Shown here piece after piece: positions 17,925 to 26,738 of a stretch of 64,000 nt of DNA (positions within the stretch are counted from its first letter, which is position 1; each line of letters begins with the position of its first letter). Below the pieces are notes generated by a model that made no database searches, was not told the origin of the DNA, and worked only from the letters and a program-made list of their open reading frames with translations. The DNA is from Bacteroidota bacterium (GTDB lineage Bacteria > Bacteroidota > Bacteroidia > Chitinophagales > Chitinophagaceae). The translations under genes and the position numbers were made by a program. The stretch lies in contig VGFK01000001.1 of NCBI GenBank assembly GCA_016868895.1, forward strand, positions 397,006 to 461,005, read 5' to 3'.

Positions 17925-19064
17925 ATGAACATCGGTATTGTTTGTTACCCGACTTTTGGAGGAAGCGGTGTGCTGGCAACTGAATTGGGCAAGGCATTGG
18001 CCGATAAGGGACATGCGGTGCATTTCATCACCTACCAACAACCGGTTCGACTCACCGGTTTCAGCGCCAATGTGTTTTTTCACGAAGTACGGGTGCCCAC
18101 TTACCCTTTGTTTGATTTCCCTCCATATGAAACGGCATTGGCCAGTACCATGGTGGATGTGGTAAAAAATAACCGAATCGACCTGTTGCATGTTCACTAT
18201 GCCATTCCACATGCTTCGGCTGCCTATATGGCACAGCAGATTTTAAAAACCGAAGGGATTTCCACCCCGTTCATCACCACGTTGCACGGAACGGATATAA
18301 CGCTGGTAGGAAAAGATAAAACCTATGCTCCGGTTGTTACCTTTTCCATCAACCAAAGTGATGCCATCACGGCGGTATCCGACAATTTGCGACTTGAAAC
18401 ACTGATGCATTTTGCCATCGAAAAAGACATCAGCGTCATTCACAATTTTGTCGACATACACCGTTTTACCAAACGACCCATTGACGCATTCAAAAAAGTC
18501 ATCGCCCCCAATAATGAAAAAATCATCCTGCATGCATCCAATTTCAGAAAAGTCAAACGCATCGCAGATGTGATCTATACCTTCAACAAGATTCGCAGCG
18601 AGATCCCCTCCAAGCTACTGCTGGTAGGCGATGGACCGGAACGACCCATGGCGGAGGAACTCTGCAGGGAATTGGGCATTTGTGAGGATGCACGGTTTGT
18701 GGGAAAGCAACAAGACATGGAAGAAATCTATGCCATCGCTGATCTTTTTCTTCTTCCCTCCGAATACGAAAGCTTTGGTCTTTCTGCCCTAGAAGCCATG
18801 GCAGCAGGCGCTCCGGTGATTGCAACCCAGACCGGTGGGCTACCTGAGATAGTTTCCGATGGAAAAGATGGCTACCTCAGTGAGGTCGGCGATGTTGAAA
18901 ACATGAGTCGCAATGCAAAACGGCTGCTGAGCAATTCAATAGTCCTGGAACAATTCAAAACAGCTGCCCGGAAAAAAGCAGAGATGTTTGACATGAATTC
19001 TATTGTTCCGAAATACGAAGCCCTGTATGAACAGGTCATTGCAAAATCATCAGCGGCGCTTTAA
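17925..19064 (+). CDS. bshA: N-acetyl-alpha-D-glucosaminyl L-malate synthase
   Basis: GT4-family glycosyltransferase that joins UDP-GlcNAc and L-malate, first step of bacillithiol synthesis; cytoplasmic. The 379 residues match BshA. The N-terminal MNIGIVCYPTFGGSGVLATE is diagnostic, followed by HVHYAIPHASAAYMA, ITTLHGTDITLVG and the donor-binding ESFGLSALEAMAAGAPVIA. It indicates that this organism makes bacillithiol as its low-molecular-weight thiol; bshB and bshC are not in the window. The last 15 bases overlap the convergent envC-like gene. Confidence 0.95.
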   Translation: MNIGIVCYPTFGGSGVLATELGKALADKGHAVHFITYQQPVRLTGFSANVFFHEVRVPTYPLFDFPPYETALASTMVDVVKNNRIDLLHVHYAIPHASAAYMAQQILKTEGISTPFITTLHGTDITLVGKDKTYAPVVTFSINQSDAITAVSDNLRLETLMHFAIEKDISVIHNFVDIHRFTKRPIDAFKKVIAPNNEKIILHASNFRKVKRIADVIYTFNKIRSEIPSKLLLVGDGPERPMAEELCRELGICEDARFVGKQQDMEEIYAIADLFLLPSEYESFGLSALEAMAAGAPVIATQTGGLPEIVSDGKDGYLSEVGDVENMSRNAKRLLSNSIVLEQFKTAARKKAEMFDMNSIVPKYEALYEQVIAKSSAAL

Positions 19065-20315
19065 CCAGAGTTCGGGATTGACAAACCGCAGTTCTTCGTT
19101 TACCATGAAGATGATTTCCCCGTCGCCATCAAAATTCTCTCCTGCTCGTCCAATGGTTTGTCCCGTCTCCACCTTTGAACCTTTGCTGACATTCACAGAG
19201 GAAAGATTAAAATACGTTGTAAAGTATTTTCCGTGCTTGATGGTCACCGTCTGGCTTCCCGCCACATCATAAACCGTGGTCACCACACCATCATAAACAG
19301 CCTTGACAGTTGTGCCGCTCTCGGTTTGAATGGTGATGCCGCTATTATCTTCCTCAATACGGGTTCCTTCAATCCGCTGGCGACCAAAACTTGAGGTAAT
19401 GGTTCCGCGATCAACCGGCCAGGGCAAATTGCCGCGGTTGTTTTCAAATCCAACCGATACCTTGGTCACTTCGGGCGTATTCTCCAATACCGTAACCTTG
19501 CGGGCTGCGGTCGGAGTTTCAGCGGGACCCGTTGCGGCACGAGTTGTAGTTGCAGTTGCGGCCGACTTTCGGGCTTCCTCCTCCGCTTTTCTTCGGGCCG
19601 CTTCGATCTCTCTTTTGATGATAGCTGCGATGGAATTCTGAAGGCTGCGCAAAACCTTTTTCTTCGCAGCTACTTCACGGGCAATTTCATTCTCTCGGGC
19701 TTTCAGTTTTGAAACAAACTGGTTCTTTTCTTTTTTTTCTGATTCCAGCAATTCTTTTTGCTTTTGCTGCTCTTCAATCACTTTACTTTTTTCACTTTTA
19801 TTTACACTGAGCATCTCAATGCGCTGACCCAACTCTTTTTGTGTGCGGTTGATTCCCACTACCTGCTCATCGCGGTACTTGCGATAGCTCTTTAAATAAG
19901 CAACCCGCTTTACGGCGTCATTAAAATTGGTTGCAGTAAAAATAAAATTGAGCATATCGTAATTGCTCCTGTTCTTGTACGCGTATTGAATGGTTTTTGC
20001 ATATTGCTTGCGCAGCGTATCCAATTGACGTTCCAAGCGATAGATTTCGCGGTTGTTGCTGAAAATGGTATTATCGATGAGTCGGATCTCATCGTTCAGG
20101 TTATCGATCACAGCATACCGGCTTCGGAGCTTGCGCTCGAGTAACTTGAGTTCAGAAAGGCTGGCTTTGCGGTCTTTGGAAACCTGGTTCTGCGTTTCCT
20201 GAAGGGAAGCAATCTCCTGCTGGATCTCCCGCCTGCGCTTTTCCAATTCTTCCTTGGTTTGTGCCTGTCCGACCAGGCATCCTGTTAACATCAGTAGAAA
20301 AACAATCTGCTTCAT
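19050..20315 (-). CDS. EnvC-like coiled-coil protein with degenerate LytM (M23) domain
   Basis: A 421-residue exported protein, start ATG at 20315 (MKQIVFLLMLTGCLVGQAQ signal peptide). Residues about 20-260 are a long coiled coil rich in Glu, Lys and Arg, with an Ala/Thr-rich hinge near 250-280, then a LytM fold (about 300-421) beginning NSGITIQTESGTTVKAVYDG. The zinc ligands expected of an active M23 peptidase are not all there: the usual C-terminal HxH region reads DGEIIFMVNEELR. As in E. coli EnvC, this suggests an activator of cell-wall amidases in division rather than a hydrolase. It is the last gene of the porU operon, 5 bases after the DUF4292 lipoprotein. Confidence 0.88.
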   Translation of the reverse strand: MKQIVFLLMLTGCLVGQAQTKEELEKRRREIQQEIASLQETQNQVSKDRKASLSELKLLERKLRSRYAVIDNLNDEIRLIDNTIFSNNREIYRLERQLDTLRKQYAKTIQYAYKNRSNYDMLNFIFTATNFNDAVKRVAYLKSYRKYRDEQVVGINRTQKELGQRIEMLSVNKSEKSKVIEEQQKQKELLESEKKEKNQFVSKLKARENEIAREVAAKKKVLRSLQNSIAAIIKREIEAARRKAEEEARKSAATATTTRAATGPAETPTAARKVTVLENTPEVTKVSVGFENNRGNLPWPVDRGTITSSFGRQRIEGTRIEEDNSGITIQTESGTTVKAVYDGVVTTVYDVAGSQTVTIKHGKYFTTYFNLSSVNVSKGSKVETGQTIGRAGENFDGDGEIIFMVNEELRFVNPELWLKRR

Positions 20316-20320
20316 CGTGA

Positions 20321-21136
20321 TCAATACAACACTTTATAGTTCTTAGGAATACTGAAGGGGAAACTTACCGGAGCATCAAATTCAACTTGTTTAAAATCCA
20401 GATTGATCTCCAGTTTATTTTTCTCGGCAAGACTGATGTTTCGGATTTCAGCAAATTGCCGGCCTCCGGCTGGAACATATGAACTGTATGCAAGACTGGC
20501 GGTCCTGCTTCTGGCCATGTCTACATCATCCAGTTTACTGAACAATAAATGCAGGTCCCCTTTTGCAACAGTTAAGTAATGCTTGAAAGACTGGCCGACC
20601 GTCGACAACGAAATCCGATCGCCCTGATCGGAATAGGCGACTACTGAACGATCCAGATAAACCGGATTGCCCATAATCAGATCTTCCAGTGTACCGTAAT
20701 CAAACGGCACCTGGGTAATGCCCTGCAGATAGGAAAGTGGTTTGCGCTGAATGGACCGATTGAGTTTATCCATAATGAAAATACTGTCCGGCGTAATCAT
20801 CACCCGATAGGCCTCTATGTTCAATGCTGCAATAATGGAAACCCAAATGGCACTGTCTTTTTTCATGCGCAAAAACGCATTGAAATCCAATCGTGTATTT
20901 TTATCGTCGGAGTAATCAACCCGCACCTTGGATGCAAACGTGTTGAAGGCCAACCGTTTTTCATTGATGGTTCGAAAAGTGGCACGAACGGACTTTGCAG
21001 AATCGCTGTCTTCTGGCTTCACCACGACCACCACGCTGTCTTTCTTGGCAACGACTGTACTTATTTTTTTGGTCGACCGACACGAAGCCATTAATGCTAC
21101 CCCTGCTACCCCAACTATGATCGCAATTATCCGCAT
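20321..21136 (-). CDS. DUF4292-family lipoprotein
   Basis: A 271-residue lipoprotein starting at 21136 (MRIIAIIVGVAGVALMASC), with lipobox LMASC and Cys19 as the lipidated residue. The mature part has the DUF4292 pattern, including FNTFASKVRVDYSD, WVSIIAALNIEAYRVMITP, SIFIMDKLNRS and a final FPFSIPKNYKVLY; the fold resembles LolA/LolB-type beta half-barrels. In Bacteroidota it is commonly next to an EnvC-like peptidase and near dut, as here. An outer-membrane or periplasmic carrier role is conjecture. It sits 4 bases after ispF-dut and 5 before envC. Confidence 0.86.
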   Translation of the reverse strand: MRIIAIIVGVAGVALMASCRSTKKISTVVAKKDSVVVVVKPEDSDSAKSVRATFRTINEKRLAFNTFASKVRVDYSDDKNTRLDFNAFLRMKKDSAIWVSIIAALNIEAYRVMITPDSIFIMDKLNRSIQRKPLSYLQGITQVPFDYGTLEDLIMGNPVYLDRSVVAYSDQGDRISLSTVGQSFKHYLTVAKGDLHLLFSKLDDVDMARSRTASLAYSSYVPAGGRQFAEIRNISLAEKNKLEINLDFKQVEFDAPVSFPFSIPKNYKVLY

Positions 21137-21140
21137 CGTG

Positions 21141-22055
21141 TTATTTTGTTCCTGTGTGTCCAAATCCTCCCTCGTTTCGCTGGGTCGCATTCAGATCGTC
21201 AGACAACTCCCATTTGATTTTTTCAACCCGTTGAAACACCAGTTGTGCAATTCGATCCCCATCGCTGATCATCTGTGGCTCATTGGAAAGGTTGATGATG
21301 ATTACTTTTATTTCACCCCGGTAATCCGAATCAATCGTTCCCGGTGTATTCAAACATGTAAGACCCTGACGCACTGCCAATCCGCTTCTGGGACGCACCT
21401 GTGCTTCCATTCCCGATGGGATCTCGAGATAGAGTCCTGTTGGAATAAGGGATCGTTCGAGAGGAGAAAGCGTAACCGGGTGTTCGAGAAATGCCCGAAG
21501 ATCCAAGCCCGAAGATCCAGGAGTGGCGTATTCCGGAACTGGATGATGAGAGCGATTAACAATATTGATGGCATGCTGCTGTTGTTCAAGAAGCACAACC
21601 GCATAGGCAACAAGTCCCTCTTCCCTTCCCACAAAGCCCATCTTCTCTGTAGTGGTAGCTTTTATGGAAATAGCTGAAATGGCTATATTTAAAATCGACG
21701 CAATGGTGTCACACATCGATGGAACATGCGGCTTTATTTTGGGAGCTTCCAGGCACAATGCAGCATCCACATGCACAACGGAATACCCGTGTTGTTGAAT
21801 GAGCGCGTGTGTGTTTTGCAAGAGGATCTTGCTGTCGATGCCTTTAAACGTTGGATCGGTATCGGGAAAGTGGGTACCAATATCACCCAATGCCAATGCT
21901 CCGAGCATGGCGTCACAGATGGCATGCAATAGCACGTCGGCATCACTGTGTCCCAATGCACCCTTATGATGCGGAATCTTTACTCCCCCTAACCATAGCT
22001 CACGCCCTTCTACCAGTTGATGAAAATCGATGCCAAATCCTGTTCTGAACGACAT
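21141..22055 (-). CDS. Fused IspF-dUTPase (MECDP synthase / dUTP diphosphatase)
   Basis: A single 304-residue frame joining two complete enzymes. Residues 1-157 are IspF, which forms 2-C-methyl-D-erythritol 2,4-cyclodiphosphate in the MEP isoprenoid pathway: metal ligands Asp10 and His12 (GFGIDFHQL) and His44 (GHSDADVLLH), and the end motif KATTTEKMGFVGREEGL. Residues about 163-304 are a trimeric dUTPase: motif 1 ATPGSSGLDLRAF, motif 2 RPRSGLAVRQG, motif 3 with catalytic Asp GTIDSDYRGEI, motif 4 DRIAQLVF, motif 5 RNEGGFGHTGTK. There is almost no linker. The start is ATG 22055; a TTG at 22073 would overlap porV. Both families form homotrimers, so a trimeric bifunctional particle is possible. 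Confidence 0.93.
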   Translation of the reverse strand: MSFRTGFGIDFHQLVEGRELWLGGVKIPHHKGALGHSDADVLLHAICDAMLGALALGDIGTHFPDTDPTFKGIDSKILLQNTHALIQQHGYSVVHVDAALCLEAPKIKPHVPSMCDTIASILNIAISAISIKATTTEKMGFVGREEGLVAYAVVLLEQQQHAINIVNRSHHPVPEYATPGSSGLDLRAFLEHPVTLSPLERSLIPTGLYLEIPSGMEAQVRPRSGLAVRQGLTCLNTPGTIDSDYRGEIKVIIINLSNEPQMISDGDRIAQLVFQRVEKIKWELSDDLNATQRNEGGFGHTGTK

Positions 22056-22069
22056 GCTGTTTGTTGAAA

Positions 22070-23215
22070 TCAATAATCCGGTTGCGCGAGATCGAACACC
22101 AATCCGAATCGGATGGTATTGGACAATGGGTTTCTGTTTACCCCCGAACCGGATGGGATGAGGTAGGATAGGTTGAACCCGATACTGGAATATTTGAATC
22201 CAGCCCCCAAAGAGAAATACTGACGATTGCCTTTCTCTTTATCCTCGTAGAAATATCCGGCCCTCACTGAAAACTGTTCGTTGTAGGTATATTCTGCACC
22301 TGCAGAGAAATAAAATTCTCTCAGCTCTTCTCCAAAACCGCCCGGAGCATCGCCAAATGAGCTGAACCAGCCGGCTACTACACTCTTGCTTCTGTAGTTG
22401 GCCAATCCAGCACTGTCGCCAAGCAATGGCGGTGTGGGCACCAATAATTTATGGATATCCAGACCAAATGAAAGTTTATTGACTTCGTTGCTGACGCTGG
22501 TGTAGACGGCACCAATGGACAGGTTGGCGGGAATAAAATCTTTTTGCGTCGCATCGCTGGTATAGCTGATTTTGGAACCCAGGTTGGTGAACGCTGCACC
22601 GAGACTGATACCGCTTCCGTCGTCGGATAAGGTATTATAATACAGTCCAATATCGCCAGCTACTGCATTACCGGGTTTGTAGGATACGCCGCTGATGGCT
22701 TGTCCCCCAGCCAAATTAGAGTTGATGTAGCGAAGAGAAACACCCAGACTCAGCCGATCAGAAAGAATTCTGGAATATCCTGCGTCCACTGCCACTTCTC
22801 TGGGACGAAATGAATTCAAGTCATTCCCCAAATTGTCTGTGAACTGAATATTTCCCAAGCTGAAATAGCGCAGTGATCCGGAAATCGCCTGGGTTTCATC
22901 CAGTTTATAATACCCGGCAAGGGATGCCAGGAATACGTCATTCAGTCCCAAGTCCTTCAACCAGGGCGTATAGGTCATTGCAATCCCAGTCGGGTTTTTT
23001 GCAAATGCATATTTTGCTACGTTGTAGAATTGAGAGTTTACATCTGGTGAAGTGGCCACACCCAAGTCGCCCATACCGCCCGCACGGGCATCAGGGGAAA
23101 TTCGAAGAAAGGGGACGGCTGTGGTCACCACATTAATCGAGTTTTGGGCCAATAGTGAAGTGGAAACAAAAAAGATGCAAAAACCAGCAAGAAAGATCCG
23201 GGTAGTCCTTTTCAT
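22070..23215 (-). CDS. porV: Type IX secretion system outer-membrane protein PorV
   Basis: A 381-residue FadL-like beta-barrel with signal peptide ending SLLAQ near residue 24. It matches PorV (LptO), the shuttle that carries T9SS substrates to the PorU sortase: the N-terminal VVTTAVPFLRISPDARAGG followed by MGDLGVATSPDVNSQFYN is diagnostic, then repeating amphipathic strands and a barrel end FGLVFDLAQPDY. It follows porU in the same leftward operon (85-base gap) and lies 14 bases before ispF-dut. The adjacency of porU, porV and gldJ is the conserved arrangement known from gliding Flavobacterium. Confidence 0.95.
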   Translation of the reverse strand: MKRTTRIFLAGFCIFFVSTSLLAQNSINVVTTAVPFLRISPDARAGGMGDLGVATSPDVNSQFYNVAKYAFAKNPTGIAMTYTPWLKDLGLNDVFLASLAGYYKLDETQAISGSLRYFSLGNIQFTDNLGNDLNSFRPREVAVDAGYSRILSDRLSLGVSLRYINSNLAGGQAISGVSYKPGNAVAGDIGLYYNTLSDDGSGISLGAAFTNLGSKISYTSDATQKDFIPANLSIGAVYTSVSNEVNKLSFGLDIHKLLVPTPPLLGDSAGLANYRSKSVVAGWFSSFGDAPGGFGEELREFYFSAGAEYTYNEQFSVRAGYFYEDKEKGNRQYFSLGAGFKYSSIGFNLSYLIPSGSGVNRNPLSNTIRFGLVFDLAQPDY

Positions 23216-23300: not shown

Positions 23301-26300
23301 CTAAAGGATTACCAACTTTTGAGAGCGGGTGGTTATAACCCCTGAAGAAGAACGAATCAACAAGGTGCAAATATATAGTCCGGGTGGGAGTCGTGCTCCA
23401 TTATTCATACTACCGTTCCACTCGATGGTAACTGTTTGCAGTCCCGTTTGATTCAGTTGGCGTTGAGACTGGAACACCATACTTCCGGTTATTGAACGCA
23501 CTTCCATGGTAACCAACGCTCCGGAGGTAGGTCCCTCCAGGTTGGCCCGAAGGGAAATAGCACCTTGCGTTGGGTTGGGATACACCTGTAATGAAAGGAT
23601 ATCAACTTGTCGCATCTTCACCACTTCGAATTCCAACAGATATTCAGAAGCATTATTGAGCACGTCCCATGCTTTGATGCGCAAACGGTGTTTACCTTCT
23701 TCCAAATTATTCAGCGGAAATGCAATGCGACCTTCCTTATTTCCATTCAATGGTTCAAATTGATCATTCAAGACATATGCTTCCGCATAGCGCTCATCCA
23801 AAACGGCAGTGATGGAATGACCAATTCCCGAACTGCCGAGATGGATTCCCTCTGCATCACGGAGTCGGACCAACAACAGCGCATTTTCCCTCACTTTTCC
23901 GCCATTGACGAATTGTTCGTTGTTGAGCCAGGCATTGAGGATGGGACCTTTCTTGTCGTTGGTGATTTGTCCACCCCATCCTCCTATCAATAATCCATCC
24001 GACGTTCCTTGTGCTTCTACTTTTCCACCCTCGGCGTAATAATTGATGCGTCCCGCACCAATGGAAAAATCAAGATCGGTTGGCACCACCAATGAGAATG
24101 AAAATGCACCGTTGGTGACCGCCACCCTTCCACTGTAGATCAAATTCTCATCGGATTGAAAGGTAGTAACGGGACTGGAGGGATCATTGGACAGCGTAGT
24201 GATGGCAATGGGTTTATCAAATAGTTTAGGATACACAAATCCATTGAACGAGTTGTCGACCGACCCATCCGGTCGGCATACTTCGCCGGTAAACGTATAG
24301 GCATTATTGGCCTTCAAGGTGTCCACTGACCCACCCAATGGTTTGCCATTCATGGTTCGGGTTTTCACTGTGTATTCAGGAATGGCCAGCTTCAACGCAG
24401 GATCACCCAGGAGCACAAACTTTCGTATGTTGACCAGATCACCTGAGTTACGAACCGTATAATTCTTTGAACGTCGGAGTGCCTCTCCCATTGGAGCATA
24501 GGTTCCATTGGCCTGTTTCATGAAGAGAAACTGTAAAAAATCATTGTTGATTACCCGGTTGCTGGATGCAAATACCAAACGGGTAGTGGTAACCAGTCCA
24601 ATCGCTCCATTCGATCTTCCCACAAACAATTCTTCACCAATGGAAAGATTGGCAGGATTATCAAATGGCGCAAAATCACAGGTAGCCGTAACAAATAAAG
24701 GCAATCGCTTGGCATTGTTCCATTCTGAAAACATCGCGCGTTCAAGAATGACTTCCTGCGCCAATCGACTGCTGCTGCCGTGTCCACTGTAATTCCATAC
24801 CATGGTCCCGCGATTGATACCGCGGTTGATGAACTGATTGACTTCAGGATAACGGCTTCCTCCGGTACCACCGGTTTGCTTGAATGCATCGAGGTATATT
24901 TTTTGAATGTTCCATCCTGGATACCGTTCCGTCAACAAACGGGCATGCAATTCAGCATCATTCAAATGAAGATTGTAATCTTCGTCGTCGGCTAACAATG
25001 AGATGTTATTTTTCCAAGCACCTCGGTCGGTGGAGTCAATGTAATACAGGATCTTGTCGACTGCCAGCCGTGCCTGTTCAAAAGTTCGGGCGGGTATGCG
25101 CCCTACTGCAACATCCAACGTTGCTTGTGGAAAGGTACGGGTGATCGATTCGCCGTCTTCGAGGTATCCAAAATAATCATCGGTTACATAGGTAGCCAAC
25201 GGATCCAAAGAGAAATCACTCTGATAGGAAGGAACAAGATTGGACAACGTACCCGTCTTGCCTTTGAAATCATAGGATGCTCCCCCAAAAAGCAACAGGT
25301 ATTTGGGGCGACGAGATGCATCACCTCCTGCACGATCAAAAAACATCTTGACAAAATTTCGAATCCCCGTGGGATCTGGATTGCCCCCGGCAAATTCATT
25401 CCAGATTTTATCTGTAGTGGCTGTCACCACCTTCAAACCATCCCGATTGCTGTGCAGCTCCGCGATGCGTTTTGCCTGAGACAACAACAGGGGATCGGTT
25501 ACAATGATCATATCCGCTGCTGCACCCGCATGCAGATCCTGATTTTCCACCCCTCCTTCCAAACGAGGCAACTTCATATTTCGGGCATCAAAGCATACAT
25601 ATTCTTTTAGTTGATGAGCATCATCGCTGAATTCCAGCGATGTCCCCACAAGTGTGGTGGTAAGGTTTACAGGCTGAAGTGGATGGCTCACGTCCCATAC
25701 TTGATGATCCGTGCGGGCATTGTCAATTTTAAACTTGATATTCGAAGCACCCACAGATGCGATATCCCGAAAAAACAATTGTGAAGTTCCGCTCACAGCC
25801 AACTTGCGTTTGAAATACAGATCAAACGCATTCAACCATACCTGTGCATTGGAACCCTGACCAATGAATCGATAACCAAGGGTAATGGCCGCTTCTCGCA
25901 ATACCCCTTCTGCCACCCCCTTGCTGGAATTGGCAAACGACTCAATCAAGGTCCCCTGAACTGATGGAGTAGTGTGCTCAAAGAGGTTGGTCCCGTTGAG
26001 TGATACCAAAACCCGGTTGGGCGATTGAAAACTTCTGCCCACCACTTCACTGTTAAAATAATACGTCGACCCCGGAATGATTCCCGGAACCGAGATGGGA
26101 AAATCAAGGGAAGTTGGTTTGCCCGGTTGATTGCTCAGCTCTTCTCCATACCATTCTTTTCCACTATTCAAAAAATTGATGGAATCCAACTCGTGATGAT
26201 AGTGCTCATCAAATGATTGGATGGGTGGTTGCGTCGACGTTTCCGTGGCACGTGAGCTTATTTTTTTTGATGTGGTGCCGGATACCTGAATGAAATAGTA

Positions 26301-26717
26301 CGACTTGTCTGAATAATGGTTTTTTATATAGGTATGCCGGCGAGCAAGGGTATCATAGATCCAGTGGTGGGGACCTTGTCCATAAAAAGAGATGAAATCA
26401 TTTCCATCCAGCACTCCATCCCCACCGTCCATCACCCAGACGGCAGTTTCGGGAAGGTCATCAGGGGATGGCAGGGAATTGTCCTCCGGCAGCTCTCCTC
26501 CTCCCGTTCCAAAAACCCGAATGGTGGCACTCGTGAAGGTCCCGCTAAGGCCCGCATTTCGAAGGAGTTCGGGGGTGATGCGATAGATACCCGGTTCGGT
26601 AACGGATACTTTTATCCATTTCCCGAATGCCAATACCGAAGAAGGGGCATAGGTTTTTTGCCCCCACGCTCCAAGGGTAAGGCCGGATACGGTTAGAAAA
26701 AAGATCCATTTTTTCAT
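23301..26717 (-). CDS. porU: Type IX secretion system sortase PorU
   Basis: A 1138-residue secreted cysteine protease (C25, gingipain-like) that removes C-terminal sorting domains from T9SS cargo at the cell surface. Signal peptide 1-19. The C25 domain spans about 395-780, with catalytic His646 in WNYSGHGSSSRL and Cys680 in FVTATCDFAPFDN. Its own C-terminus has a type A sorting tail (about 1045-1138): LQVYPNPTQGAISL, then LPPGLYICTLLIRSS. Length and order match PorU. A -7 element TAAATTTG lies 13 bases before the ATG. It heads a leftward operon with porV, ispF-dut, DUF4292 and envC, divergent from gldJ. Confidence 0.96.
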   Translation of the reverse strand: MKKWIFFLTVSGLTLGAWGQKTYAPSSVLAFGKWIKVSVTEPGIYRITPELLRNAGLSGTFTSATIRVFGTGGGELPEDNSLPSPDDLPETAVWVMDGGDGVLDGNDFISFYGQGPHHWIYDTLARRHTYIKNHYSDKSYYFIQVSGTTSKKISSRATETSTQPPIQSFDEHYHHELDSINFLNSGKEWYGEELSNQPGKPTSLDFPISVPGIIPGSTYYFNSEVVGRSFQSPNRVLVSLNGTNLFEHTTPSVQGTLIESFANSSKGVAEGVLREAAITLGYRFIGQGSNAQVWLNAFDLYFKRKLAVSGTSQLFFRDIASVGASNIKFKIDNARTDHQVWDVSHPLQPVNLTTTLVGTSLEFSDDAHQLKEYVCFDARNMKLPRLEGGVENQDLHAGAAADMIIVTDPLLLSQAKRIAELHSNRDGLKVVTATTDKIWNEFAGGNPDPTGIRNFVKMFFDRAGGDASRRPKYLLLFGGASYDFKGKTGTLSNLVPSYQSDFSLDPLATYVTDDYFGYLEDGESITRTFPQATLDVAVGRIPARTFEQARLAVDKILYYIDSTDRGAWKNNISLLADDEDYNLHLNDAELHARLLTERYPGWNIQKIYLDAFKQTGGTGGSRYPEVNQFINRGINRGTMVWNYSGHGSSSRLAQEVILERAMFSEWNNAKRLPLFVTATCDFAPFDNPANLSIGEELFVGRSNGAIGLVTTTRLVFASSNRVINNDFLQFLFMKQANGTYAPMGEALRRSKNYTVRNSGDLVNIRKFVLLGDPALKLAIPEYTVKTRTMNGKPLGGSVDTLKANNAYTFTGEVCRPDGSVDNSFNGFVYPKLFDKPIAITTLSNDPSSPVTTFQSDENLIYSGRVAVTNGAFSFSLVVPTDLDFSIGAGRINYYAEGGKVEAQGTSDGLLIGGWGGQITNDKKGPILNAWLNNEQFVNGGKVRENALLLVRLRDAEGIHLGSSGIGHSITAVLDERYAEAYVLNDQFEPLNGNKEGRIAFPLNNLEEGKHRLRIKAWDVLNNASEYLLEFEVVKMRQVDILSLQVYPNPTQGAISLRANLEGPTSGALVTMEVRSITGSMVFQSQRQLNQTGLQTVTIEWNGSMNNGARLPPGLYICTLLIRSSSGVITTRSQKLVIL

Positions 26718-26730
26718 AAAGCCCTGTTAA

Positions 26731-26738
26731 CAAATTTA
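26731..26738 (-). promoter_or_regulatory. -7 promoter element before porU
   Basis: Reads TAAATTTG on the minus strand, a full TAnnTTTG match, 13 bases before the porU ATG. No TTG is found at the proper distance upstream. Inferred. Confidence 0.45.

Follow-up and report, generated by a model that had tools for sequence, protein, structure and literature searches.

An In-Frame Fusion of IspF and dUTPase in Two Genera of Chitinophagaceae

Introduction

IspF converts CDP-ME2P to MEcPP and dUTPase converts dUTP to dUMP. In a genome of the Chitinophagaceae (1.75 Mb, 96% complete) the two are encoded by a single open frame next to porV, and the question raised by this locus is whether they are truly one protein, how they came to be joined and what the joining would mean for the cell. 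The DNA stretch analyzed, called the window here, has a length of 64,000 nt, and all positions refer to it.

The known fusion of IspF is IspDF (IspD–IspF), as described in PMC10663253 and PMC13001223. Its structures come from Campylobacter jejuni (1w55 and 1w57) and Helicobacter pylori (8xhu and 8xkf), and 1w55 and 8xkf were among the fold matches of the present protein. The two architectures are alike in that IspF is joined to another housekeeping enzyme and the steps catalyzed are not consecutive. They differ in the partner: in IspDF this is IspD, located N-terminally and acting in the same pathway, whereas here it is a dUTPase, located C-terminally and belonging to a different pathway. No description of an IspF–dUTPase fusion was found in the open-access literature, which is consistent with the sequence-only reading of the window, where the pairing had been considered undescribed.

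Results

The Fused Gene and Its Domains

The frame of 304 codons that had been proposed for this position is borne out on the minus strand, where it starts with the ATG at 22055 and its last codon ends at 21144 (ORF 21141..22073). The plus strand at 21141-22055 is interrupted by stops. There is no stop between the two domains, which are listed with their neighbors in table 1.

Table 1. Features of the fusion gene and of the surrounding array in the window
Feature	Position	Strand	Evidence or remark
Promoter-like box TAAATTTG	26731..26738	minus	13 nt before the porU ATG
porU (T9SS sortase)	23304..26717	minus	NF033707, 1178 bits (cut-off 420); upstream of porV
porV	22073..23215	minus	NF033710, 465 bits (cut-off 250); directly upstream of the fusion
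ispF::dut fusion gene	21141..22055	minus	304 codons and stop TAA at 21141-21143
IspF domain, residues 3-157	21585..22049	minus	PF02542 and TIGR00151 above cut-off
Linker, residues 158-162 (QQQHA)	21570..21584	minus	Occupies the place of the ispF-dut spacer
dUTPase domain, residues about 163-304	21144..21569	minus	PF00692 and NF001862 above cut-off
lolB-like lipoprotein gene (DUF4292)	20321..21136	minus	PF14125, 141 bits (cut-off 23); downstream of the fusion
M23/EnvC-like peptidase gene	19050..20324	minus	PF01551, 59.6 bits (cut-off 28.7); downstream

The IspF half matches the Pfam family YgbB/IspF (PF02542) over residues 3-156 with 226.4 bits (cut-off 26.7) and the NCBIfam ispF model (TIGR00151) with 212.6 bits (cut-off 116). 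The dUTPase half matches Pfam PF00692 over residues 172-302 with 106.3 bits (cut-off 22) and the NCBIfam dUTP diphosphatase model (NF001862) with 195.6 bits (cut-off 103), the matches extending to about residues 167-303. The IspDF profile (NF006899) gave 224.9 bits, which is below its cut-off of 417 and derives from the IspF part only, and no IspD domain is located in front of the fusion.

In detail, the IspF half contains D10, H12, H44, E137, R144, and E146, all of them invariant in the eight fused proteins presented below. The first four correspond, with a shift of two positions, to D8, H10, H42, and E135 of Escherichia coli, the metal ligands of IspF. All five motifs are found in the dUTPase half, that is, SGLDLRA (182), RPRSGLA (221), GTIDSDYRGE (239), GDRIAQL (266), and GGFGHTG (296). 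These are the motifs of trimeric dUTPases, including the Asp/Tyr of motif III and the C-terminal Phe motif V. The fusion is real, and it consists of a complete IspF, a linker of about five residues, and a complete five-motif dUTPase, as the sequence-only reading had stated.

In profile, residues, and fold the IspF half is the same as stand-alone IspF (TIGR00151 and PF02542), to which the fusion adds the C-terminal dUTPase. Similarly, the dUTPase half has the profile, the five motifs, and the fold of trimeric dUTPases (PF00692 and NF001862), but it is placed behind IspF, and in the window neither a start codon nor a promoter box for dUTPase alone was detected. The closest relatives of the fusion are the split ispF-dut pairs of other Chitinophagaceae (e.g., G177 and L115), which are located in the same array. 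These consist of two frames with a stop, a spacer and, mostly, a TAnnTTTG box before dut.

The Array and Its Genome Context

The fusion is the only IspF match and the only dUTPase match of its genome (E up to 0.01). A stand-alone IspD gene is found on contig 2, and a thymidylate synthase gene is present elsewhere in the genome. Since parts of both surrounding pathways are encoded and the fusion is the sole match for both functions, both activities are probably needed.

The placement of the gene between porV and the DUF4292 gene, as earlier suggested, agrees with the profiles of table 1. The DUF4292 protein also matches the LolB1 model NF053559 (153.6 bits; cut-off 50), and the likely start of its gene, judged from the sequence, is the ATG of MRIIAIIVGVAGVALMASC, 4 nt past the fusion stop (the ORF is listed from 21190). 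The following peptidase scored 104.9 bits with the EnvC equivalog NF008644, below the cut-off of 270, and EnvC is thus used as a label only.

The TAAATTTG box before porU is a candidate promoter of the array, proposed solely from its position: boxes of the TAnnTTTG type in the whole window amounted to 22 matches, compared with 25.7 expected, so they are not in excess. The other minus-strand box upstream of the fusion, at 23368-23375, is inside porU. With its short leader, TAAATTTG is placed like the boxes before dut in split relatives. In Flavobacterium psychrophilum, a porU promoter with an alternative sigma-factor motif is described in PMC9723704.

Occurrence of the Fusion among Relatives

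The fusion is not particular to this genome: an in-frame fusion without a stop is found in seven further genomes. One (G157, locus L113) is a second species of the window genus, with a fusion 84% identical to that of the window. The other six (G008, G185, G186, G193, G194, and G195) represent six species of the genus Flavihumibacter.

The split arrangement prevails around them. Among the 80 named loci, which are the best 80 of 547 matches, the genes for IspF, Dut, LolB, and EnvC follow one another in this order and on the same strand in 56, and PorV precedes them in 54 of these. The ispF and dut genes are separate neighbors within this array, nearly always behind porV, in 53 of the best 80. 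Of the 56 ordered loci, one carries the fusion (L030, Flavihumibacter sp. UBA7668, which corresponds to L126 of G194), two (L039 and L081) have ispF and dut about 2 kb apart, and one (L069) has a shortened dut. The remaining 24 of the 80 have no dut within the sequence stretch, in some cases owing to a contig end. In Chitinophaga sp. E66 (CP079103.1, L069 6468-6791), the dut gene beside ispF looks broken; its frame ends early and its best match covers only residues 3-81 of the dUTPase query, as after a frameshift or a sequencing error.

In the window genus, 38 of 41 genomes had a match. Two are fused (the window genome and G157), 20 are split by sequence reading, and 16 were judged split from the match table alone, on separate matches in open frames of less than 300 aa. 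In one genome of this genus (G139, contig 58, 4412-5519), the dUTPase match beside ispF is on the opposite strand, as in a local inversion or an array rearrangement. In Flavihumibacter, 14 of 15 genomes had a match and all were read from sequence, six being fused and eight split.

At the family level, 145 of 147 sampled genomes had a match, and only the window genome and G008 are fused among the matches listed. Open frames above 300 aa were tabulated for many relatives, but these read through stops and hence are no sign of fusion. A wide occurrence across the family was rejected after 20 loci with such apparent frames were inspected: none was fused, 19 were split, and one had no dut match in its stretch. 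Six further loci were also split.

No in-frame fusion outside the window genus and Flavihumibacter was found in the order sample (396 genomes, protein query, E up to 1e-80), the class sample (395 genomes, profile, E up to 1e-75), or the sample of the phylum Bacteroidota (395 genomes, same profile); these samples overlap, and their thresholds favor joined matches and could miss a diverged fusion whose linker is long. A locus titled Sphingomonadales bacterium (L020, VHBB01000014.1) contains a PorV-IspF-Dut-LolB-EnvC array of the Chitinophagaceae type and groups among Chitinophagaceae in the trees; it is probably a mislabelled bin.

Number of Origins

The phylogenetic tree of the joined IspF and dUTPase sequences included 105 different rows, eight of them fused, after 17 duplicates and one short row were dropped. 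Two changes between the split and the fused state are needed on this tree and are forced by its starred branches, although the bootstrap is not fully settled; the two fused groups were joined in 0% of 200 bootstrap trees. The flanking genes (PorV, LolB, and EnvC) were analyzed with a quick method and SH-aLRT support only, on 74 rows with seven fused, the G157 row being 47% filled. The fused rows of this tree also form two clades, and two changes are needed and forced by starred branches. The window genome and G157 group with the split G177 as their sister, and the split G197 is the sister of the Flavihumibacter fusions. Close relatives of either fused group still have the two genes apart.

The alternative is one fusion event, with the fused gene later transferred horizontally from one of the two groups to the other. 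A single fused clade was not rejected by the AU test, either with 105 rows (p 0.25, log-likelihood 20.7 lower) or with 50 rows (p 0.17, log-likelihood 24.2 lower). Moreover, two changes are required, though not forced, on the separate trees of IspF and of dUTPase, and the linkers are similarly short, with about five residues in the window and eight in Flavihumibacter. On the other hand, the best trees separate the groups by the above log-likelihood differences, the linker sequences differ, and the flanking genes place the groups in separate clades, as expected for two fusions inherited vertically. A single event is thereby an unlikely, if still the most serious, competitor. Because the trees place the fused groups apart, two separate fusion events, one in the window genus and one in the Flavihumibacter clade, are likely, though not proven.

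The Junction and a Probable Promoter Box of dut

Counted between residue 157 (IspF) and residue 163 (dUTPase), the spacer comprises 15 nt in the window and in G157 and 24 nt in four Flavihumibacter fusions (L176, L177, L179, and L030). In the nearest split relative, G177, it is 45 nt long and contains a TAA stop, the promoter-like box TATTTTTGC, and a TTG start. In several relatives (e.g., L115 and L142), ispF and dut are in the same frame with an intervening stop.

A TAnnTTTG box was present in 67 of 87 distinct split spacers, compared with 4.95±2.1 in 200 shuffles (maximum 12) and with four of 87 on the reverse strand of the same spacers. Spacers of 30-320 nt were considered, nine rows outside this range were skipped, and identical spacers were counted once; related genomes do not contribute independent spacers, and 20 of the 87 have no box. 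The box is located 20-42 nt before dUTPase residue 3 in 66 of 91 loci, and in the same register before ispF in nine of 91. Among the 66, G does not occur at the second variable base and occurs at the first in five cases.

This is close to the Flavobacterium −7 element, mapped as TAHHTTTG at −12 to −5 in PMC6847099; a sigma-A motif is given in PMC9723704. As the enrichment and the register of the box fit the Bacteroidota −7 element, separate dut genes are very probably transcribed from a promoter of their own within the array.

None of the eight fused genes retains the ispF stop or the promoter box, the TAnnTTTG motif being absent from their coding sequence, and at least six have also lost the dut start codon. 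The sequence-only reading had explained the fusion by loss of a stop between neighboring genes. That the two were neighbors in one array stands, but the loss of a stop is an incomplete account, as the box and the start were probably lost also (45 nt of spacer in G177 versus 15 nt in the window).

No TAnnTTTG was found within 300 nt before ispF in the window or in L113. In L126, the box TAATTTTG starts 13 nt before the ispF start, and therefore not every fused gene is clearly without a box of its own.

Repeats are found at some of these loci. L182 of G197, the split locus most closely related to the Flavihumibacter fusions, has an ispF-dut spacer of 198 nt in which a GC-rich repeat (around CCCGTCTGG/GTGGCCACCGCGAA) occurs several times and TAnnTTTG is absent. 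Upstream of ispF in the fused loci L123, L124, and L126, there are simple repeats of the TTCACC / CTCACGTCT type, through which the open frame continues in phase, giving it a long N-terminal extension.

Selection on the Fused Genes

Between L002 and L123, the dN/dS ratio (Nei-Gojobori) was 0.032 for IspF and 0.027 for dUTPase, and between L125 and L126 it was 0.017 and 0.041, respectively. For the window compared with L113, synonymous sites were saturated, and pN was 0.078 for IspF, 0.104 for dUTPase, and 0.329 for the linker. Judged from these substitution rates, both halves are under purifying selection after the fusion.

Structure and the Trimer

The IspF and dUTPase families both act as C3 homotrimers; the active sites of IspF are located between subunits, and trimeric dUTPases have a swapped C-terminal arm. 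Since both families share this symmetry, three chains of the fusion can satisfy both halves, and the stacked IspF–dUTPase trimer suggested by the sequence-only reading is plausible.

The AlphaFold model of a single chain had a mean pLDDT of 86.4 and a pTM of 0.70, with residues 137-140 below 50. Its input alignment had 50 rows, that is, the eight fused proteins and separate IspF or dUTPase segments from 21 of 97 split loci. The IspF half (model residues 2-159) was superimposed on 5iwx_B with Z 27.6 and rmsd 1.0 over 150 aligned residues, and the dUTPase half (160-289) on 3mbq_A with Z 18.5 and rmsd 2.6 over 130. The best 50 Foldseek rows were all IspF, and dUTPase appeared once in the VIA-align list, at rank 50, because one domain fills the list. 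Among the sequences of solved structures, none of the best 60 of 109 matches spans both halves in its best stretch.

In published IspF trimers, R142 and E144 (E. coli numbering; R144 and E146 of the fusion) form the aperture of a central cavity, F139 is likewise a cavity residue, and the cavity binds isoprenoid diphosphates (PMC2151065). Salt bridges between H5 and E149 seal the cavity floor in E. coli (PMC2151065). The last IspF strand, residues 147-158 of the model, would run from the aperture to the floor, and therefore the C-terminal dUTPase would be situated on the floor side with the aperture open.

The two enzymes might have been joined for a functional partnership, either through proximity of their active sites or through the isoprenoid cavity of IspF regulating dUTPase, or the reverse. 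Recurrence in two groups and eight species, conservation within the Flavihumibacter clade, and the published ligand binding of the cavity (PMC2151065) speak for it. However, adjacency in the array alone accounts for the recurrence, and IspDF shows that fusions of IspF need not link consecutive steps (PMC13001223). Moreover, the two reactions have no known intermediate in common, as discussed below. A partnership of this kind is, in consequence, improbable.

Internal Start Codons and Separate Enzymes

The fused message could also yield two normal separate enzymes, if the protein were cut or translation re-initiated near the linker. The scan for in-frame ATG, GTG, and TTG codons ran from codon 143, as numbered in the window, until beyond the beginning of dUTPase, and seven of the eight fused genes had at least one such codon after codon 150 and ahead of the dUTPase domain. 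In that stretch, the window has only a GTG at 154, with no further ATG, GTG, or TTG until the TTG at 184; L123 has only a TTG at 151, and L113 has none before 184. L125 has an ATG at codon 161. A TTG at codon 166 is shared by L125 and L126; it precedes the conserved V by two codons and falls where the split start of the window genus is located. This place carries no ATG, GTG, or TTG in the window, G157, L002, L122, L123, and L124.

With a single GTG in the window and nothing in L113, a separate start of dUTPase is unlikely in the window group, where hardly any codon could serve as one. Weak starts are hard to judge, since Bacteroidota are described as lacking Shine-Dalgarno sequences (PMC6847099), and some separate dUTPase may derive from internal starts, foremost in L125 and L126. 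As a general account of the fused genes, two separate enzymes in the cell are nevertheless rather improbable, slightly more so than a partnership.

A sequencing or assembly error hiding a stop, which the sequence-only reading had named as its possible refutation and which a single error could produce from same-frame genes like those of L115 and L142, is very unlikely because seven other genomes carry the in-frame fusion, including a species of the same genus with the same 15-nt spacer, and because G177 has 30 nt more of spacer, including a box and a start codon that are absent here.

Discussion

The locus is best explained as a bifunctional enzyme which arose by operon compaction from two C3-trimer enzymes and which operates without substrate channelling; we assign this reading a probability of about 0.8. 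It is based on the frame, the domains, the conserved residues, the recurrence, the split neighbors, the spacer boxes, and the absence of the box in the fused genes.

The ancestral array of the Chitinophagaceae would have been porU-porV-ispF-dut-lolB-envC. Most of the ispF-dut spacer was presumably lost in the lineage of the window genome and, most likely separately, in the Flavihumibacter clade. With the spacer, each of the eight fused genes would have lost the stop of ispF and the box of dut, at least six of them the dut start as well, and the two frames would have become one. In the resulting polypeptide, each half is expected to fold and trimerize as its normal enzyme and to keep its activity.

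The cost would be the loss of separate dut control: as the box, the stop and mostly the start are gone, dUTPase seems to depend on upstream transcription. To our knowledge, IspF and dUTPase share no intermediate. For that reason no channelling is proposed, and with no shared substrate the gain would be at most compaction and a fixed 1:1 output. Probably, the fusion does not constitute a new pathway. Compaction fits the small genome of the window species, but small size is not required, as five of the six Flavihumibacter fusion genomes have 4.5-5.4 Mb (the sixth has 2.6 Mb at 55% completeness).

A more ambitious version of the bifunctional enzyme remains tentative and is considerably less probable than compaction. 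Here, a recurrently evolved enzyme would carry the IspF and dUTPase trimers on one threefold axis, with dUTPase on the floor side and the isoprenoid aperture open. The join itself would be selected, through co-folding, stability, or fixed stoichiometry, and the supply of thymidylate precursors and isoprenoid synthesis would be tied to a secretion-system operon.

The finding places beside IspDF a further pairing, IspF–dUTPase, for which the open-access literature searched gave no report. Annotation that expects a single-domain IspF or dUTPase may mislabel such proteins. The two fused groups and their split relatives offer a near-replicated natural experiment, in which neighboring genes, one of them with an apparent promoter of its own, become one protein.
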